Made by a program: the position numbers and the translations under genes
Origin: an uncultured Oscillochloris sp.
Lineage (GTDB): Bacteria > Chloroflexota > Chloroflexia > Chloroflexales > Chloroflexaceae
Assembly (NCBI GenBank): GCA_903920315.1
Contig: CAIXLU010000526.1
Location: forward strand, 1 to 33,999
Reading direction: 5' to 3'
Length of the DNA: 33,999 nucleotides
Part shown: positions 27 to 32,492 of the stretch, in pieces
Layout of the letters: the number at the start of each line of letters is the position of its first letter
Position numbering within the stretch: position 1 is the first letter of the stretch
Notes under the pieces: model-generated
Told to the model about the DNA's origin: nothing
Database searches by the model: none
The model's input: only the letters and a program-made list of their open reading frames with translations

Positions 27-76
27 GCGCTCTGCGTGACATGCGTCATAGGGTTACCTTTGCGGTATTGCGTAAA

Positions 77-105
77 CCTGAACCCTGGCACCTGAAACCT
101 TGTCT
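77..105 (-). repeat. Short heptamer array (CCTGAAC/CCTGGCA/CCTGAAA/CCTTGTC)
   Basis: Four consecutive 7-bp units in register occupy 77-104. The last 15 bases, CCTGAAACCTTGTCT, are identical to the right end of the 305-bp inverted-repeat unit at 32477-32491. It lies just upstream of the promoter region of the carboxylase operon. Confidence 0.7.
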
Positions 106-8503: not shown

Positions 8504-8538
8504 GATTGTAGATTGTAGATTGCAGATTGCCGGATGCA
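8504..8538 (+). repeat. Heptamer array (GATTGTA/GATTGCA), five units
   Basis: Units in register: GATTGTA, GATTGTA, GATTGCA, GATTGCC, GGATGCA, starting one base after the ssb stop codon. The 18-mer at 8519-8536 (ATTGCAGATTGCCGGATG) is repeated exactly at 8697-8714, bracketing the ssb-helicase spacer with direct repeats. Confidence 0.85.
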
Positions 8539-8696: not shown

Positions 8697-8754
8697 ATTG
8701 CAGATTGCCGGATGTTCCCGCAATCTGCAATCCGCAATCCGCAATCCGCAATCG
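8697..8754. repeat. Palindromic heptamer array at the helicase start
   Basis: ATTGCAGATTGC (8697-8708) is perfectly complementary to GCAATCTGCAAT (8720-8731) across an 11-nt loop. The right side continues as five heptamers: GCAATCT, three GCAATCC, GCAATCG (8720-8754). The helicase ATG follows four bases later at 8759, with no Shine-Dalgarno between. ATGTTCCCGCAATC at 8712-8725 is also found at 8641-8654. Confidence 0.85.
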
Positions 8755-10731: not shown

Positions 10732-10750
10732 AAACAAGGCGCTCTGCCTC

Positions 10751-10785
10751 CTGACCCCTGACCCCTGACCCCTGACCCCTGACCC
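10751..10785. repeat. Five perfect CTGACCC heptamers
   Basis: Exactly five identical 7-bp units fill 10751-10785. The next three bases, CTA, are the stop codon (TAG) of the minus-strand GIDE gene, so the array begins at its last base. Confidence 0.92.
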
Positions 10786-11550
10786 CTATCCGGCGATCAG
10801 TCCCACAATCGTTAGGATTACGCCGAGGATTACGGAGGCAATGGCGGCGTACTTCATATAGCTCGCCCATGCCGCCGCCGCGTCGGCCAACTCGCGCTCG
10901 CTCTTGCGGCTCACCATAAAGCGATGATCCGTATCGGTAGGGTGGCGGGCAATCGCCGGGACGCCTTTATGATCCACGGCGCAGCCCAGAATGTAGACCG
11001 ATGTACCCGGCGCCAGGCTCTGCTCGACGTGGCGCATGCCGAGCGGGTGGGTCTGTCCCGACCAGGGCTGCTGCACCGTATCAAAGCGGTTGCCGCTCTC
11101 GGCAAGATCAAGCTCGGCACCCTCGGGTAACACCAGCGTGCGCCCAGTAGAGTCGCGCACATAGAAGTTCATCCGTCGATCATCGCTCTTCATCTGCTCA
11201 CTGCGCCGCTCTACCGTCGTCTCCTTCTTCCCCTCATCGTTGGTTTTCGTTACCCGCTCCTCGTACTCACGTGTCTGAGTGTAGGTGTAGGCCACGCAGG
11301 GATTTTTGGAAATCGGGGCGGTGAGCGGAGTGGAACATTCAATGCTGCCTGTAATTTCACAGGGCAATACCAGTGCGTCCGCACCGACGTTAGCGGCAAT
11401 TTTCTTGTACGCCTCACTCAAATCCTGGGCCGTGTAGGTATCGGTCGCATTCATCGCGTCAAGGGCATTGGTATTTGAGCGGGCGACGAAGAAACAGATC
11501 ACGGCAATGACCAGAAAGACAACGCCAGCGATGATCATGGTGTACTCCAT
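10786..11550 (-). CDS. GIDE-domain membrane protein (MUL1-like domain, no RING)
   Basis: 254 residues with a transmembrane helix at about 5-24, a soluble middle domain, and a second helix at about 231-252. The middle part carries the pattern of the GIDE domain of eukaryotic MUL1 and its prokaryotic relatives: CEITGSIECSTPLTAPISKNPCVAYTYTQTREYEERV, MNFYVRD..G, a GxxH-x6-G segment (SGQTHPLGMRHVEQSLAPGTSVYILG), and a final HRFMVSRKSERELA. MUL1 has the order helix, GIDE, helix, RING; here the RING is absent. The function of bacterial members is not known to me. The ATG at 11550 begins just before the first helix; its Shine-Dalgarno is weak. The gene is monocistronic, and its stop codon abuts the CTGACCC array. 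Confidence 0.72.
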   Translation of the reverse strand: MEYTMIIAGVVFLVIAVICFFVARSNTNALDAMNATDTYTAQDLSEAYKKIAANVGADALVLPCEITGSIECSTPLTAPISKNPCVAYTYTQTREYEERVTKTNDEGKKETTVERRSEQMKSDDRRMNFYVRDSTGRTLVLPEGAELDLAESGNRFDTVQQPWSGQTHPLGMRHVEQSLAPGTSVYILGCAVDHKGVPAIARHPTDTDHRFMVSRKSERELADAAAAWASYMKYAAIASVILGVILTIVGLIAG

Positions 11551-17454: not shown

Positions 17455-17466
17455 CTGCGGTGATTC

Positions 17467-17549
17467 GGGAGCCGGGAGCCGGGAGCCGGGTTCCGGGAGC
17501 CGGGTTCCGGCCACCGGCCACCGGCCACCGGCCACCGGCCACCGGCTCC
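17467..17549. repeat. Composite heptamer array (GGGAGCC/GGGTTCC and GGCCACC)
   Basis: Eleven 7-bp units in unbroken register occupy 17467-17543: three GGGAGCC, GGGTTCC, GGGAGCC, GGGTTCC, then five GGCCACC. The ends GGAGCCGG and CCGGCTCC are mutually inverted, so the array can fold back. It begins 13 bp upstream of the kinase start, between accA and the kinase. The remaining spacer to accA (17550-17620) shows only a weak CCCCG/CGGGG hairpin. Confidence 0.92.
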
Positions 17550-21274: not shown

Positions 21275-24200
21275 ATGAACGCCCCGTTCGCATTTCGTCA
21301 CCCACGGGCAGGAGCAGCGATAGCTGTACTCCTGCTTTTTGCCTTGATCGCCGCCCTGTCTGCTACAGTCTGGCTGGATAATGCGACCAATCGCGGTGTT
21401 ACCTACCGCGCTGGCGCAGATCCCATCCCCTTCACCGACGGCCCGAGCGTGGGCGTCAATCTCTACAACCTCCCGTTTGAACCCGACCCTGCGGTGGTGG
21501 ATCGCAGCTTCGCGCTGGCCCACGATCTCGGGGCGCGCTATGCGCGTATGCAGGCACCCTGGGAAGATATTGAGATCCACGCCAGAGGCGATTTTGAGGA
21601 TCGGCGAAATCTGGCGACGCTGGGCGCGATCTCGGCATGGGCCAAGTACGACCGGATCGTGGCCGCCGCCAACGCCGCCGGGGTCGAGTTAATCTTGCGC
21701 TTGGAGCGCCCGCCAGACTGGTCACGCCAGCGGTCTCTAGCCTCGCCTGAGTTCCAGGCGGGCCTGAATCTCGATGGCAACTCGACCGGCCCGCCCGACG
21801 ACTTCGCCGATTACGCTCACTTCGTGCAAGCACTGGTGGAACGCTATGACGGCGACGGTGTGGATGACGCGCCCGCCCACCAGCGGGTGCGCTTCTTCCA
21901 GCTCTGGAACGAGCCAAACCTGATGGGCGAGTGGAACTGGCAGACGCCTAGCCCCGAAGATTTTGTGGCCCTGTTGCGTGCCGGGGCCGCCGCCGCACGT
22001 GCGGCCAATCCCCAGGCCGTCATCCTCTTCCCCGGCCTCGCCCCCACCGATGGCCTCGACTGGCGCGCACCCATGACCGAGCTAGAGTACCTCGACCGAG
22101 TCTACAAGGCCGGTGGAGCAGACTCTTTCGACATTATGGCCGCCCAAAGCTACGGCCTGGGCCAGTCGCCCTCTGAACACCGCTACGTCTTCCTGCGCGG
22201 GCGCAGCAACTGGAGCTGGAACCAGCCGATTGACACGCGCAGCGACGTGAGCCGGGTGGTGCTGCTGCGCGAAGTGATGGAGCGCAACGGCGATGCGGGT
22301 ACGCCGGTGTGGGTGACGGAATTTGGTTGGAACAGCGCGCCGGAACACATTCCGCCCGAACGCCGGAATACATGGGGCCAGCCGGTCTCCGAGCAGCAGA
22401 AGGGCGATTACCTTGTCGAACAGGTCGAGCGGGCACGCCAGGAATGGCCGTGGATGGGGGTGATGAACGTGTGGATGCTGCGCTACGGCGGCTACACCGA
22501 TCCAAACCCGGAAGACCCCACGCCCTACTTCGCCCTGGTGAGCCGCGACTGGCAGCCCCTAGAATCGTACCGCATCCTCCAGACGTACCTAGCCCGTCCA
22601 GCCACGGCGGGAGTCGGTGCCCATAACTGGCAGAGTCAGGCGGTAGAACGGATTGATGGCGGCTGGCGGGTGCGCTTCAGCGGAGCGCGGATCAGCCTGG
22701 TGGGCGGCATAGCCGATCCGTACACGGTGATCATTGACGGGCAGGCGGCGATCACGACCCGCGACGAGGCCGATGGGCACCAGACCCTGCACTCGGCGTG
22801 GCTACCCGAGGGCGAGCACATGCTAGAACTGCACGGCACAGCGGCACCCGATACGTTTACGGTGGATCGGGCGAGACCCTGGGGCTGGTTCTGGGATTAC
22901 GGGCCGCTGGCGGTGCTGATTACCATTGCGGTGAGCGGTGCGATAGCGATGGGCAGAATCTTCACTGTTGTCATGTCGTGGATGGATGTACCAGCGAAGC
23001 TGACACATCTATCCACGATAGTACGAGTTTTTAAGAGTAGGATTCGCCCCGATACTCTCTTCCTCTTCGCTATGGGCCTTGGCCTGCTGATCGCCTACCG
23101 AGCCTCGGCGCAACTGCCGCTGACCGCACTAGGTCTGGTCATCTTTACGCCCCTGGCCCTCTGGCGACCCGATCTAGCCCTGGCATACGTGCCCCTCACA
23201 GTGACACTCTACTTCATGCCCAAGGGCCTATTCGATGCCCGCTTCGGCATCCGCGACAACGGGATCTACCTGCCGCTGCACGAGGTTGTCCTGGTGATTA
23301 CCGCCATCAGCTCCCTACGCCATGCCCCTCGCCTCTCGCCTCCTGCCTCTCGCCTCCTGCCTCCTGCCTCCTGCCTCCCGCCTCCTACCCCCCGCCTCCT
23401 ACTCCCCGCCTCCCTCTTCGCCCTCGCCGGCATGTGGGGCTTCCTGATTGCCGGGGACAAAGGCCCGGCCCTGCGCGAGTTGCGCTGGCTGATCATCGAG
23501 CCGCTGATCTTCTGCGGGCTGCTGATCTTCTACGCACGCAGGCGCGAGCCGGGATATGTGACGCTGATTATTGGTTTTTGGCTGGCGGGCGGGGCAATGA
23601 GCGGGCTGGTGGGAATTCTTCAGTTTTTTGGGCTGAATCTGGCTCCGCTGATTGGCACGAAGGTGGGCTTCAGTAACGACACCATCCCGGTGGAGGGTGT
23701 GCTGCGCGTAACCGGACTCTACGGCCACCCGAATAACCTTGGCCTCGCCATGGGCCGCTTCTGGCCGCTGGCAGCGGCCCTGGCCCATGTGGCCTTCTGG
23801 AACGGGCCGGGCGGCATGGCGCGTATCCGCCGATCCTGGCCGATCCTGCTGGCGACATTGCTGTGCCTGGGCGGGTTACTCGTCTCGTTCTCACGCGGAG
23901 CCTACCTGGGCGCGGCAGCGGGCGCGGTGGTACTCGGGCTGCTGCTTGTCGGGCGGGAGGCGGGAGGCGGCAGGCGGGAGGCGGGAGGCGGCAGGCGGCA
24001 GGCGGCAGGCGGCAGGGAGCCTTCCCCCCGCTTCCTGCCTCCTGCCTCCCGCCTCCTGCCCCTGATTCTCGGGGCTGCGGTCAGTCTCACAGTTCTCGGC
24101 GGACTGGCCCTGTTGGCCGTGAACGTGCAGCGCTTCAACCTGCTCGGTGCCAGCAGCGGGATCAGGGTGCAGACCTGGGCGTCGGCTCTGGCGATGCTGC

Positions 24201-24553
24201 GCGATCATCCCCTCGGCGTGGGTCTTGACCAGTTCGGGCGGCTCTATCCGCAGTATATGGATCCAGCCCTAGCCGGTACCAACGAGATCAACACGGCCCA
24301 CCCGCACAACCTGCTGCTCGACATTGCCCTGCGCATGGGGCCGCTGGGCCTGCTGGCCTTCACCTGGCTGCTGGTGATTTTCTACCGGCGCATGATTCAG
24401 CACACGGGCGCACCCCTGCGAATCGGGGCGATGGCAGCGATGACGGCAGCCCTTGTCCACGGGCTGGTGGACTCTTTCTACTTCTGGCCGGATCTGGCCT
24501 TCGCCTTCTGGCTGATGATCGCCTTGAGCATGATTGCGCCCAGCGCAGACTAA
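21275..24553 (+). CDS. Glycosidase-like domain fused to O-antigen-ligase-like membrane domain
   Basis: 1092 residues. An N-terminal helix (about 14-32) leads to an exported TIM-barrel glycosidase-like domain (about 60-440) with both catalytic-type glutamates: LWNEPN (Glu213) and VWVTEFGWN (Glu349). A beta-rich module follows (about 455-540), then a transmembrane helix (about 547-567) and a polytopic domain (about 600-1092) with GHPNNLGLAMGR, FSRGAYLG (Arg874) and HPHNLLLD (His1009/His1011), the conserved features of WaaL/Wzy_C ligases. It may polymerise or transfer an exopolysaccharide and trim or sense it with the outer domain. Two loops between membrane helices (about residues 686-713 and 894-930) are encoded by heptamer repeats. 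Transcription appears leaderless. It converges on the S41 peptidase gene with 6 bp between. The functional link of the two halves is inference. Confidence 0.85.
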   Translation: MNAPFAFRHPRAGAAIAVLLLFALIAALSATVWLDNATNRGVTYRAGADPIPFTDGPSVGVNLYNLPFEPDPAVVDRSFALAHDLGARYARMQAPWEDIEIHARGDFEDRRNLATLGAISAWAKYDRIVAAANAAGVELILRLERPPDWSRQRSLASPEFQAGLNLDGNSTGPPDDFADYAHFVQALVERYDGDGVDDAPAHQRVRFFQLWNEPNLMGEWNWQTPSPEDFVALLRAGAAAARAANPQAVILFPGLAPTDGLDWRAPMTELEYLDRVYKAGGADSFDIMAAQSYGLGQSPSEHRYVFLRGRSNWSWNQPIDTRSDVSRVVLLREVMERNGDAGTPVWVTEFGWNSAPEHIPPERRNTWGQPVSEQQKGDYLVEQVERARQEWPWMGVMNVWMLRYGGYTDPNPEDPTPYFALVSRDWQPLESYRILQTYLARPATAGVGAHNWQSQAVERIDGGWRVRFSGARISLVGGIADPYTVIIDGQAAITTRDEADGHQTLHSAWLPEGEHMLELHGTAAPDTFTVDRARPWGWFWDYGPLAVLITIAVSGAIAMGRIFTVVMSWMDVPAKLTHLSTIVRVFKSRIRPDTLFLFAMGLGLLIAYRASAQLPLTALGLVIFTPLALWRPDLALAYVPLTVTLYFMPKGLFDARFGIRDNGIYLPLHEVVLVITAISSLRHAPRLSPPASRLLPPASCLPPPTPRLLLPASLFALAGMWGFLIAGDKGPALRELRWLIIEPLIFCGLLIFYARRREPGYVTLIIGFWLAGGAMSGLVGILQFFGLNLAPLIGTKVGFSNDTIPVEGVLRVTGLYGHPNNLGLAMGRFWPLAAALAHVAFWNGPGGMARIRRSWPILLATLLCLGGLLVSFSRGAYLGAAAGAVVLGLLLVGREAGGGRREAGGGRRQAAGGREPSPRFLPPASRLLPLILGAAVSLTVLGGLALLAVNVQRFNLLGASSGIRVQTWASALAMLRDHPLGVGLDQFGRLYPQYMDPALAGTNEINTAHPHNLLLDIALRMGPLGLLAFTWLLVIFYRRMIQHTGAPLRIGAMAAMTAALVHGLVDSFYFWPDLAFAFWLMIALSMIAPSAD
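23331..23414 (+). repeat. Twelve in-frame heptamers (GCCTCCT/GCCTCTC) inside the ligase gene
   Basis: Twelve 7-bp units in register, totalling 84 bp or 28 codons, so the frame is kept. They encode a Pro/Ser/Leu/Arg-rich loop of low complexity. Confidence 0.9.
23955..24057. repeat. Inverted heptamer arrays (GGGAGGC/GGCAGGC facing GCCTCCT) inside the ligase gene
   Basis: Nine GGSAGGC units (23955-24017) face about four GCTTCCT/GCCTCCT/GCCTCCC units (24030-24057) across a 12-bp centre. The two arrays are largely complementary and can form a hairpin. They are translated as an Arg/Gly/Ala-rich, then Pro-rich, loop between two membrane helices. Confidence 0.9.
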
Positions 24554-30019: not shown

Positions 30020-30081
30020 CTAGACAAGGGTACAGGGAGTGAAGTGTATTTTAGATTGCAGATTTTAGATTGCAGATTCGG
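30020..30081. repeat. CTAGACAAGG motif followed by GATTGCA heptamers
   Basis: CTAGACAAGG at 30020-30029 matches the end motif of the 305-bp unit at 32188. Four heptamers follow at 30054-30081: GATTGCA, GATTTTA, GATTGCA, GATTCGG. This lies in the SNF2 leader. Confidence 0.7.
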
Positions 30082-30084
30082 CCC

Positions 30085-30136
30085 CCTCACCCCCTGCCCC
30101 TCCCCCTTTATGGGAGAGGGGGCTGGGAGGTGAGGG
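30085..30136. repeat. REP-like C/G-rich imperfect hairpin
   Basis: A CCCTCACCCCCTGCCCC arm faces GGGAGAGGGGGCTGGG and GGTGAGGG across a TTTAT loop. Same family as the hairpin inside 8556-8630. It occupies the spacer between divergent SNF2 and the unknown gene at 30218. Confidence 0.65.
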
Positions 30137-30173
30137 TTGAGTAGAATCAGGCGACTATCGTGAAGGCTAGCCA

Positions 30174-30182
30174 TGCTATCAT
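30174..30182 (+). promoter_or_regulatory. Possible extended -10 for the gene at 30218
   Basis: TGCTATCAT fits TGn plus a near-consensus -10, 35 bp before the start codon. No clear -35 is visible. Confidence 0.3.
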
Positions 30183-31974: not shown

Positions 31975-32010
31975 TTAGACAAGGTTTCAGGTGTGAGGTT
32001 TCAGGTTTCA
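31975..32010 (+). repeat. TTAGACAAGG end motif with GGTTTCA heptamers
   Basis: TTAGACAAGG (31975-31984) runs into GGTTTCA, GGTGTGA, GGTTTCA, GGTTTCA (31983-32010). The following bases to about 32035 (AGGTC...CACCAGGATGCCA-like) match those after the left end of the unit at 32188, so it is a partial direct copy. It lies 15 bp upstream of the DAHP synthase start. Confidence 0.8.
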
Positions 32011-32035
32011 GGTCAAGTGCATCAGGATGCCACAT

Positions 32036-32187
32036 TCTGGCCTGAACTGTAAAGTATCTGCGAACGTTGTCTTAACTGCGGAATCTTCCCTCTTCCCTTG
32101 GGAAAGGAATTAGGGTGAGGGCCAGATGCCCGCCAGTATACCTGAGAATTCCTGCTGTGCTGACATAACGCGAGGCAAATTCTGGCA
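32036..32187. other. Non-coding spacer with a decayed REP-like hairpin
   Basis: Within the 528-bp gap between DAHP synthase and the EAL gene, this part holds only TTCCC-TT-GGGAA (32093-32104) with AGGGTGAGGG after it, a decayed member of the 8556-8630 family. I see no gene or clear promoter. Confidence 0.45.
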
Positions 32188-32492
32188 CTAGACAAGGTTT
32201 GAGGTTTCAGGTTTCAGGTGCCAGGTCGAACGCACCAGGATGCCAGATTTCGCTCTGAGACATGGTTCAATCCAGCTTTACAGTTTGGGCTGCGCGTCGT
32301 ACGGGCTTCCAGCCCACCAGATGTGCATCGGCAGGATGGAAGCTTGCACGACAAACTGGCACGCTGAAACCTGGCACCTGAAACCTGGCACCTGAAACCT
32401 GGCACGCTGAAACCTGGCACCTGAAACCTGGCACCTGAAACCTGGCACCTGAAACCTGGCACCTGAAACCTGGCACCTGAAACCTTGTCTAG
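32188..32492. mobile_element. 305-bp heptamer-built unit with terminal inverted repeats
   Basis: It begins CTAGACAAGG followed by GGTTTGA, GGTTTCA, GGTTTCA, GGTGCCA (32196-32223), and ends in the inverse, CCTGGCA, CCTGAAA, CCTTGTCTAG (32483-32492 being the inverted end motif). The right arm is expanded to nine alternating CCTGAAA/CCTGGCA pairs (14-bp period, 32364-32490, one 15-bp unit). About 130 bp of non-repetitive sequence lies between the arms and has no gene. The terminal CTAG contains the stop codon of the EAL gene. Confidence 0.75.

Follow-up and report, generated by a model that had tools for sequence, protein, structure and literature searches.

A 305-bp inverted-repeat unit on an Oscillochloris contig as a probable chimeric copy of a Chloroflexales MITE family with a heptamer arm

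What kind of unit occupies positions 32188–32492 of a contig from an uncultured Oscillochloris sp., where two inverted arms built of heptamers face each other over 305 bp? The window, i.e. the whole stretch of DNA analysed with its 33,999 nucleotides, represents the entire contig C526 of a 5.5-Mb genome in 716 contigs, here called G000. In the sequence of the window, the motif CTAGACAAGG at 32188–32197 recurs as its reverse complement at 32483–32492, the place of both ends according to the original prediction, and the GGTTTCA-type heptamers which it had described occupy both arms, with arm-to-arm pairing over 52 nt (83%). Allowing at most one mismatch, TAGACAAGG is found 11 times in the window versus 3.3 times expected, a number reached in none of 100 shuffles. 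The suggestion of a non-autonomous element is borne out by the checks proposed along with it: copies are numerous and have defined ends, 3 bp of the target are duplicated, and empty sites exist. With a probability of roughly 0.9, the unit is one copy of a non-autonomous MITE family of the Chloroflexales. The element and its immediate flanks are:

32188–32190, no strand: left flank CTA, with TA common to the right flank
32191–32489, plus strand: element without its flanks, GACAAGG...CCTTGTC, 299 bp, a chimera of two members of the MITE family
32490–32492, no strand: right flank TAG, with TA common to the left flank and the 3-bp duplication not intact

The standard member of the family, delimited by the pairing of inward-facing GACAAGG ends, is exactly 94 bp long (GACAAGG...CCTTGTC), non-coding and asymmetric in its interior. 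Alignment of 30 such copies, with a mean column identity of 90% and defined ends, yields the consensus GACAAGGTTTCAGGTGCGAGGTTTCAGGTTTCAGGTCGAGCGCATCAGGATGCCACATTCTGGCCTGAACTGTAAAGTATCTGCGAACCTTGTC with terminal inverted repeats of 9 bp, GACAAGGTT...AACCTTGTC. One end of the element constitutes the heptamer arm, while the opposite end reads GACAAGGTTCGCAGATACTTTACAGTT. From the left end, the 7-base units GACAAGG-TTTCAGG-TGCGAGG-TTTCAGG-TTTCAGG run in register, such that the arm has the terminal repeat as its first heptamer. Subfamilies extend from approximately 86 to 300 bp, with the longer ones (118–134 bp, up to approximately 300 bp) keeping the ends and differing in the interior. Besides the unit under study, the window harbours one complete and one truncated member:

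31975–31977, no strand: target site duplication TTA, left of the 94-bp copy
31978–32071, plus strand: complete 94-bp copy with the right end mutated to CGTTGTC (98.0 bits)
32072–32074, no strand: target site duplication TTA, right of the 94-bp copy
60–104, minus strand: end of a third element with a TTTCAGG-type arm, cut by the contig start (profile R1 positions 1–45, 26.3 bits)

Three additional occurrences of the end motif had been listed in the original prediction, of which the one at 31975–31984 marks the left end of the complete 94-bp copy and the one at 98–104 on the minus strand is a true element end, while the one at 30020–30029 has neither a partner end nor a score with the 94-bp profile. 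Behind this lone CTAGACAAGG, the region 30020–30175 continues with GTACAGG and ATTTTAGATTGCAG heptamers; an old copy may have left this remnant.

A genome-wide search for TAGACAAGGTTTCAGG with at most two mismatches gave 176 matches versus 2 for the reversed pattern. Copies counted with a sequence-only profile amount to at least 116 in G000, at least 113 in G001 and at least 115 in G015, followed by 81 in G003, 45 in G004 and 38 in G005, and G002, a relative of the same genus, scores zero. Carried some 115 times or more by three genomes and absent from this relative, the family provides clean presence/absence markers. Bulk carriers of the motif are Oscillochloris-like Chloroflexales, of whose intergenic repeats the family makes up a large, apparently undescribed share; plasmid and phage collections contained no match to it. 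Matches of a 17-mer in unrelated bacteria and of a 16-mer in viral contigs occurred in numbers that chance predicts for such collections.

The family leaves a footprint upon insertion. Exactly 3 bp are shared by the flanks in 86 of 159 candidate end pairs and 4 bp in one, compared to a mean of 29.9 and a maximum of 47 pairs with 3 bp upon shuffling, a figure that is high because TTA or TAA make up most flanks. The duplicated trinucleotide is TTA in 34 and TAA in 29 insertions (63 of 86), followed by TAT, ATA, TAG and others, and about half of the insertions are preceded by C and followed by G. Three empty sites were observed. The 94-bp copy at 31978–32071 has no counterpart in G001 between the same two genes (83% over 235 bp), with the junctions CTCTTA|ACTGCGG in the window and CTCTTGCTGCGG in G001 one base apart. 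Another 94-bp copy, L264:4484–4577 (target site duplication TTA), interrupts a dispersed repeat at GGCTTTA|GCCGG, of which over a dozen uninterrupted copies exist, many of them base-perfect at the junction. Finally, the 132-bp member L005:2525–2656 (target site duplication TCA) interrupts a 94-bp copy, which has over 20 uninterrupted counterparts. The element inserts into TWA in the context C|TWA|G and duplicates 3 bp, and its presence or absence varies at orthologous as well as paralogous sites. The repeat interrupted in L264, TAGCAATCCTCTTGGGGTTGTTG...GGCTTTAGCCGGATAAGGCCGCCTAAAGG, is dispersed as well and measures at least 75 bp; both G000 and G001 possess it. It was seen in the flanks of L264:4484–4577 and in L008, L113, L230, L232, L239 and L248, with one element insertion.

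These duplications, 3 bp long and mostly TTA or TAA, do not support CTAG as the target, which the original prediction had considered; in a set of 86 end pairs, CTA...TAG flanks occur once, namely at the 305-bp unit itself. As the flanks of this copy share TA only, its own duplication is not intact and a claim on CTAG does not follow from it. The missing duplication and the empty site in G001, which aligns poorly at the junction, speak against the assignment of this copy to the MITE family. The shared TA and the two perfect ends would also suit one self-contained element of IS630/Tc1-like type with a CTAG target and a 2-bp TA duplication, but insertions of the family duplicate 3 bp, the profile fits only the first 68 bp with a second element starting at 32259, and G000 does not contain an IS630-type DDE_3 domain, which makes such an element very improbable. 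An IS630/Tc1 origin with a TA target was rejected, as insertions share 3 bp instead of 2 bp and the 305-bp copy displays TA alone.

The interior of the unit, assigned here to the MITE family, consists of the following parts:

32191–32258, plus strand: first 68 bp of the 94-bp element, ending with TGA (profile R1 positions 1–68, 46.4 bits)
32259–32489, minus strand: inner element of 231 bp, starting with GACATGGTTCAATCCAGC (88% identity to L004:5089–5220)
32356–32485, minus strand: expanded arm, a tandem array of TTTCAGGTGCCAGG 14-mers that keeps register with the terminal GACAAGG, approximately nine copies

The match to the 94-bp profile ends at 32258, and immediately after the TGA, at 32259, the second element begins with GACATGGTTCAATCCAGCTTTACAG; its 88% identity to the 132-bp inner element of L004 extends over the first 128 bp. 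The latter is part of a 200-bp unit (L004:5021–5220, on G000:C403) that shares its 68-bp left part and its TGA junction with the 305-bp unit and is flanked by TTA on either side. In L005:2496–2724 (G000:C510) the nested form is intact, and L118 in G001 represents a further chimera at the same TGA, such that the internal TGA of the 94-bp element is a repeated site of nested insertion. The profile stop at 32258, together with the junction common to L004, L005 and L118, shows that in the 305-bp unit a second, longer family member is attached, at the internal TGA, to 68 bp of a 94-bp element, and that chimeras with this junction are recurrent. What had been described as a single unit hence possesses real element ends, but is two elements fused; nor had the original prediction recognised the neighbouring 94-bp copy as the standard form.

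The chimera presumably arose from a nested insertion after which the outer element lost its other end, because AACCTTGTC repeats recombined or because the two TTTCAGG-type ends were mobilised jointly. The chimera at 32191–32489 could have transposed as a whole or, alternatively, the outer 29 bp could have been lost by recombination in place. With 231 bp versus 132 bp, its inner element is 99 bp longer than that of L004, which corresponds to approximately seven TTTCAGGTGCCAGG 14-mers; these additional units account for the right arm being far more expanded than the left, as had correctly been noted at the outset. The arm probably grew by replication slippage of the 14-mer.

Tandem heptamers are not restricted to the elements. 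In 597 kb of G000, a sample biased to element-bearing contigs, approximately 304 tandem arrays were counted, of which 198 have a period of 7, 14 or 21, and period-7 arrays are found outside elements too. Heptamers are therefore not specific to transposition, a point against the MITE assignment, and as period-7 arrays are the commonest tandem repeats sampled, arm expansion probably reflects a tendency of the whole genome to which the element is subject, and not a feature of its transposition. It has been reported that heptanucleotide repeats outnumber the other classes of short repeats in most genomes (PMC4679880), and those of cyanobacteria and Beggiatoaceae are, as here, tandem 7-base units in mostly intergenic positions (PMC4679880), although the units described here make up the arm of an element that is mobile and has fixed ends. 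Together with the fact that the right arm is such an array, these observations would be compatible with a heptamer tandem repeat, an STRR-like slippage array which is palindromic by accident and not mobile. The 94-bp copies, however, have fixed ends, a conserved non-repeat interior, 3-bp duplications and empty sites, the last of which refute a slippage array as the whole explanation; while extremely improbable in this role, slippage is the likely cause of the arm length.

Other period-7 arrays in the window are located at 8504–8529, 8718–8753, 10750–10787, 17466–17546, 23323–23414, 23952–24064 and 30048–30078, with the units GATTGTA, CCGCAAT, CCTGACC, CGGGAGC, CCGGCCA, GGCGGCA and ATTTTAGATTGCAG. 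The arrays at 23323–23414 and 23952–24064 are contained in the open reading frame 21275–24553, which is kept open with a 21-bp periodicity, and the latter array consists of a forward array followed by its reverse complement, resembling an inserted palindromic unit.

For an arm that belongs to the MITE family and whose heptamers are in register with GACAAGG, a more far-reaching role can be conceived. The arm might serve as a tunable transposase-binding array, whereby chimeras with two arms, i.e. the 200-bp unit on G000:C403 and the 299-bp element of the window, would move as a new lineage and slippage would set mobility; we regard this as rather unlikely.

The element of the window is otherwise intergenic, with an overlap into a neighbouring gene:

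32489–32491, minus strand: stop codon TAG of an EAL/GGDEF gene, composed of the terminal base of the element and the flanking TA

In G001, the copy of the EAL/GGDEF protein stops two codons earlier. That the element provides the stop codon of a gene, and that the 305-bp strand folds strongly as RNA (z −7.2), as long inverted repeats generally would, could point to a regulatory or structural intergenic repeat such as an RNA hairpin, a terminator or a recombination site, kept for its function. But the covariation signal from 30 copies is weak (term −0.35), the window has no Rfam match and the sites examined are not common to different species, so that this explanation is judged quite improbable. 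A conserved RNA structure was discarded as a candidate, given the covariation term and the missing Rfam match in the window. The family also illustrates how nested insertion combined with slippage gives rise to new forms of an element, and how a gene can receive its stop codon from the end of one.

The family resembles bacterial MITEs in being short and non-coding, with terminal inverted repeats, a target duplication, a high copy number, empty sites and nested copies. It differs from them in that no parental insertion sequence with the same ends was found, and in that one arm, of highly variable length, is composed of heptamers that keep register with the terminal inverted repeat. Presumably, a DDE transposase supplied in trans acts on the GACAAGG ends and moves the elements, and this enzyme probably belongs to the IS5/PIF-Harbinger-like group with its TNA targets or to ISAzo13. 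A screen of terminal inverted repeats for the autonomous partner covered PF01609, PF13340, PF13359, PF13586 and PF07592 loci; among the DDE_Tnp_1, DUF4096, DDE_Tnp_4, DDE_Tnp_1_2 and ISAzo13 loci screened in these fragmented draft genomes, none displayed GACAAGG ends, which counts against the MITE assignment. The autonomous partner could have been lost, could be rare or could have escaped assembly from short reads. Among long-range end pairs at distances of 0.4–5 kb, only host genes lie between copies. An example is L092:253–2491, where a two-component sensor/regulator pair is enclosed by two family ends that face inward and have TTA on either side, which may be due to chance or represent a composite element.

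Elements of the IS1031 group of IS5 have a TNA target and exclusively 3-bp repeats (PMC12016507), while TWA or C|TNA|G is the target of PHIS elements (PMC4482050). The TNA/TWA 3-bp duplication in the context C|TNA|G is thus common to IS5 elements of the IS1031 and IS427 groups, eukaryotic PIF/Harbinger (PHIS) elements and the family described here (PMC12016507, PMC4482050). The resident IS5-type elements examined do not match the family in their ends: an 865-bp element of this type in G023, with a TTA duplication, ends with GARGCTGTCTGAAAAGG as compared to GACAAGG of the family. Likewise, ISAzo13 copies in G004, G023 and G030 are located on TTA/TAA 3-bp duplications as family members are, but end with GGGTTCATAAA or GGGCTCATAAA. 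A literature search did not retrieve a description of the family, weak evidence of absence as this is; while MITEs are a known kind of element, this family is apparently undescribed, and it stands out by its recurrent chimeras and by a heptamer arm that keeps register with the terminal repeat.

In L180/L203 (G023:C83), L157 and L291, IS5-type copies (GARGCTGTCTGAAAAGG) and ISAzo13 copies (GGGTTCATAAA) are located on TTA/TAA duplications and can adjoin each other or a MITE end, which indicates that TWA sites are common to several transposon types. A related end, GGCATGTTTC (outward GAAACATGCC), often adjoins a GACAWGG end across a shared TWA, for example in L128, L140, L142, L152 and L154 among others, where family members insert side by side at one TWA.
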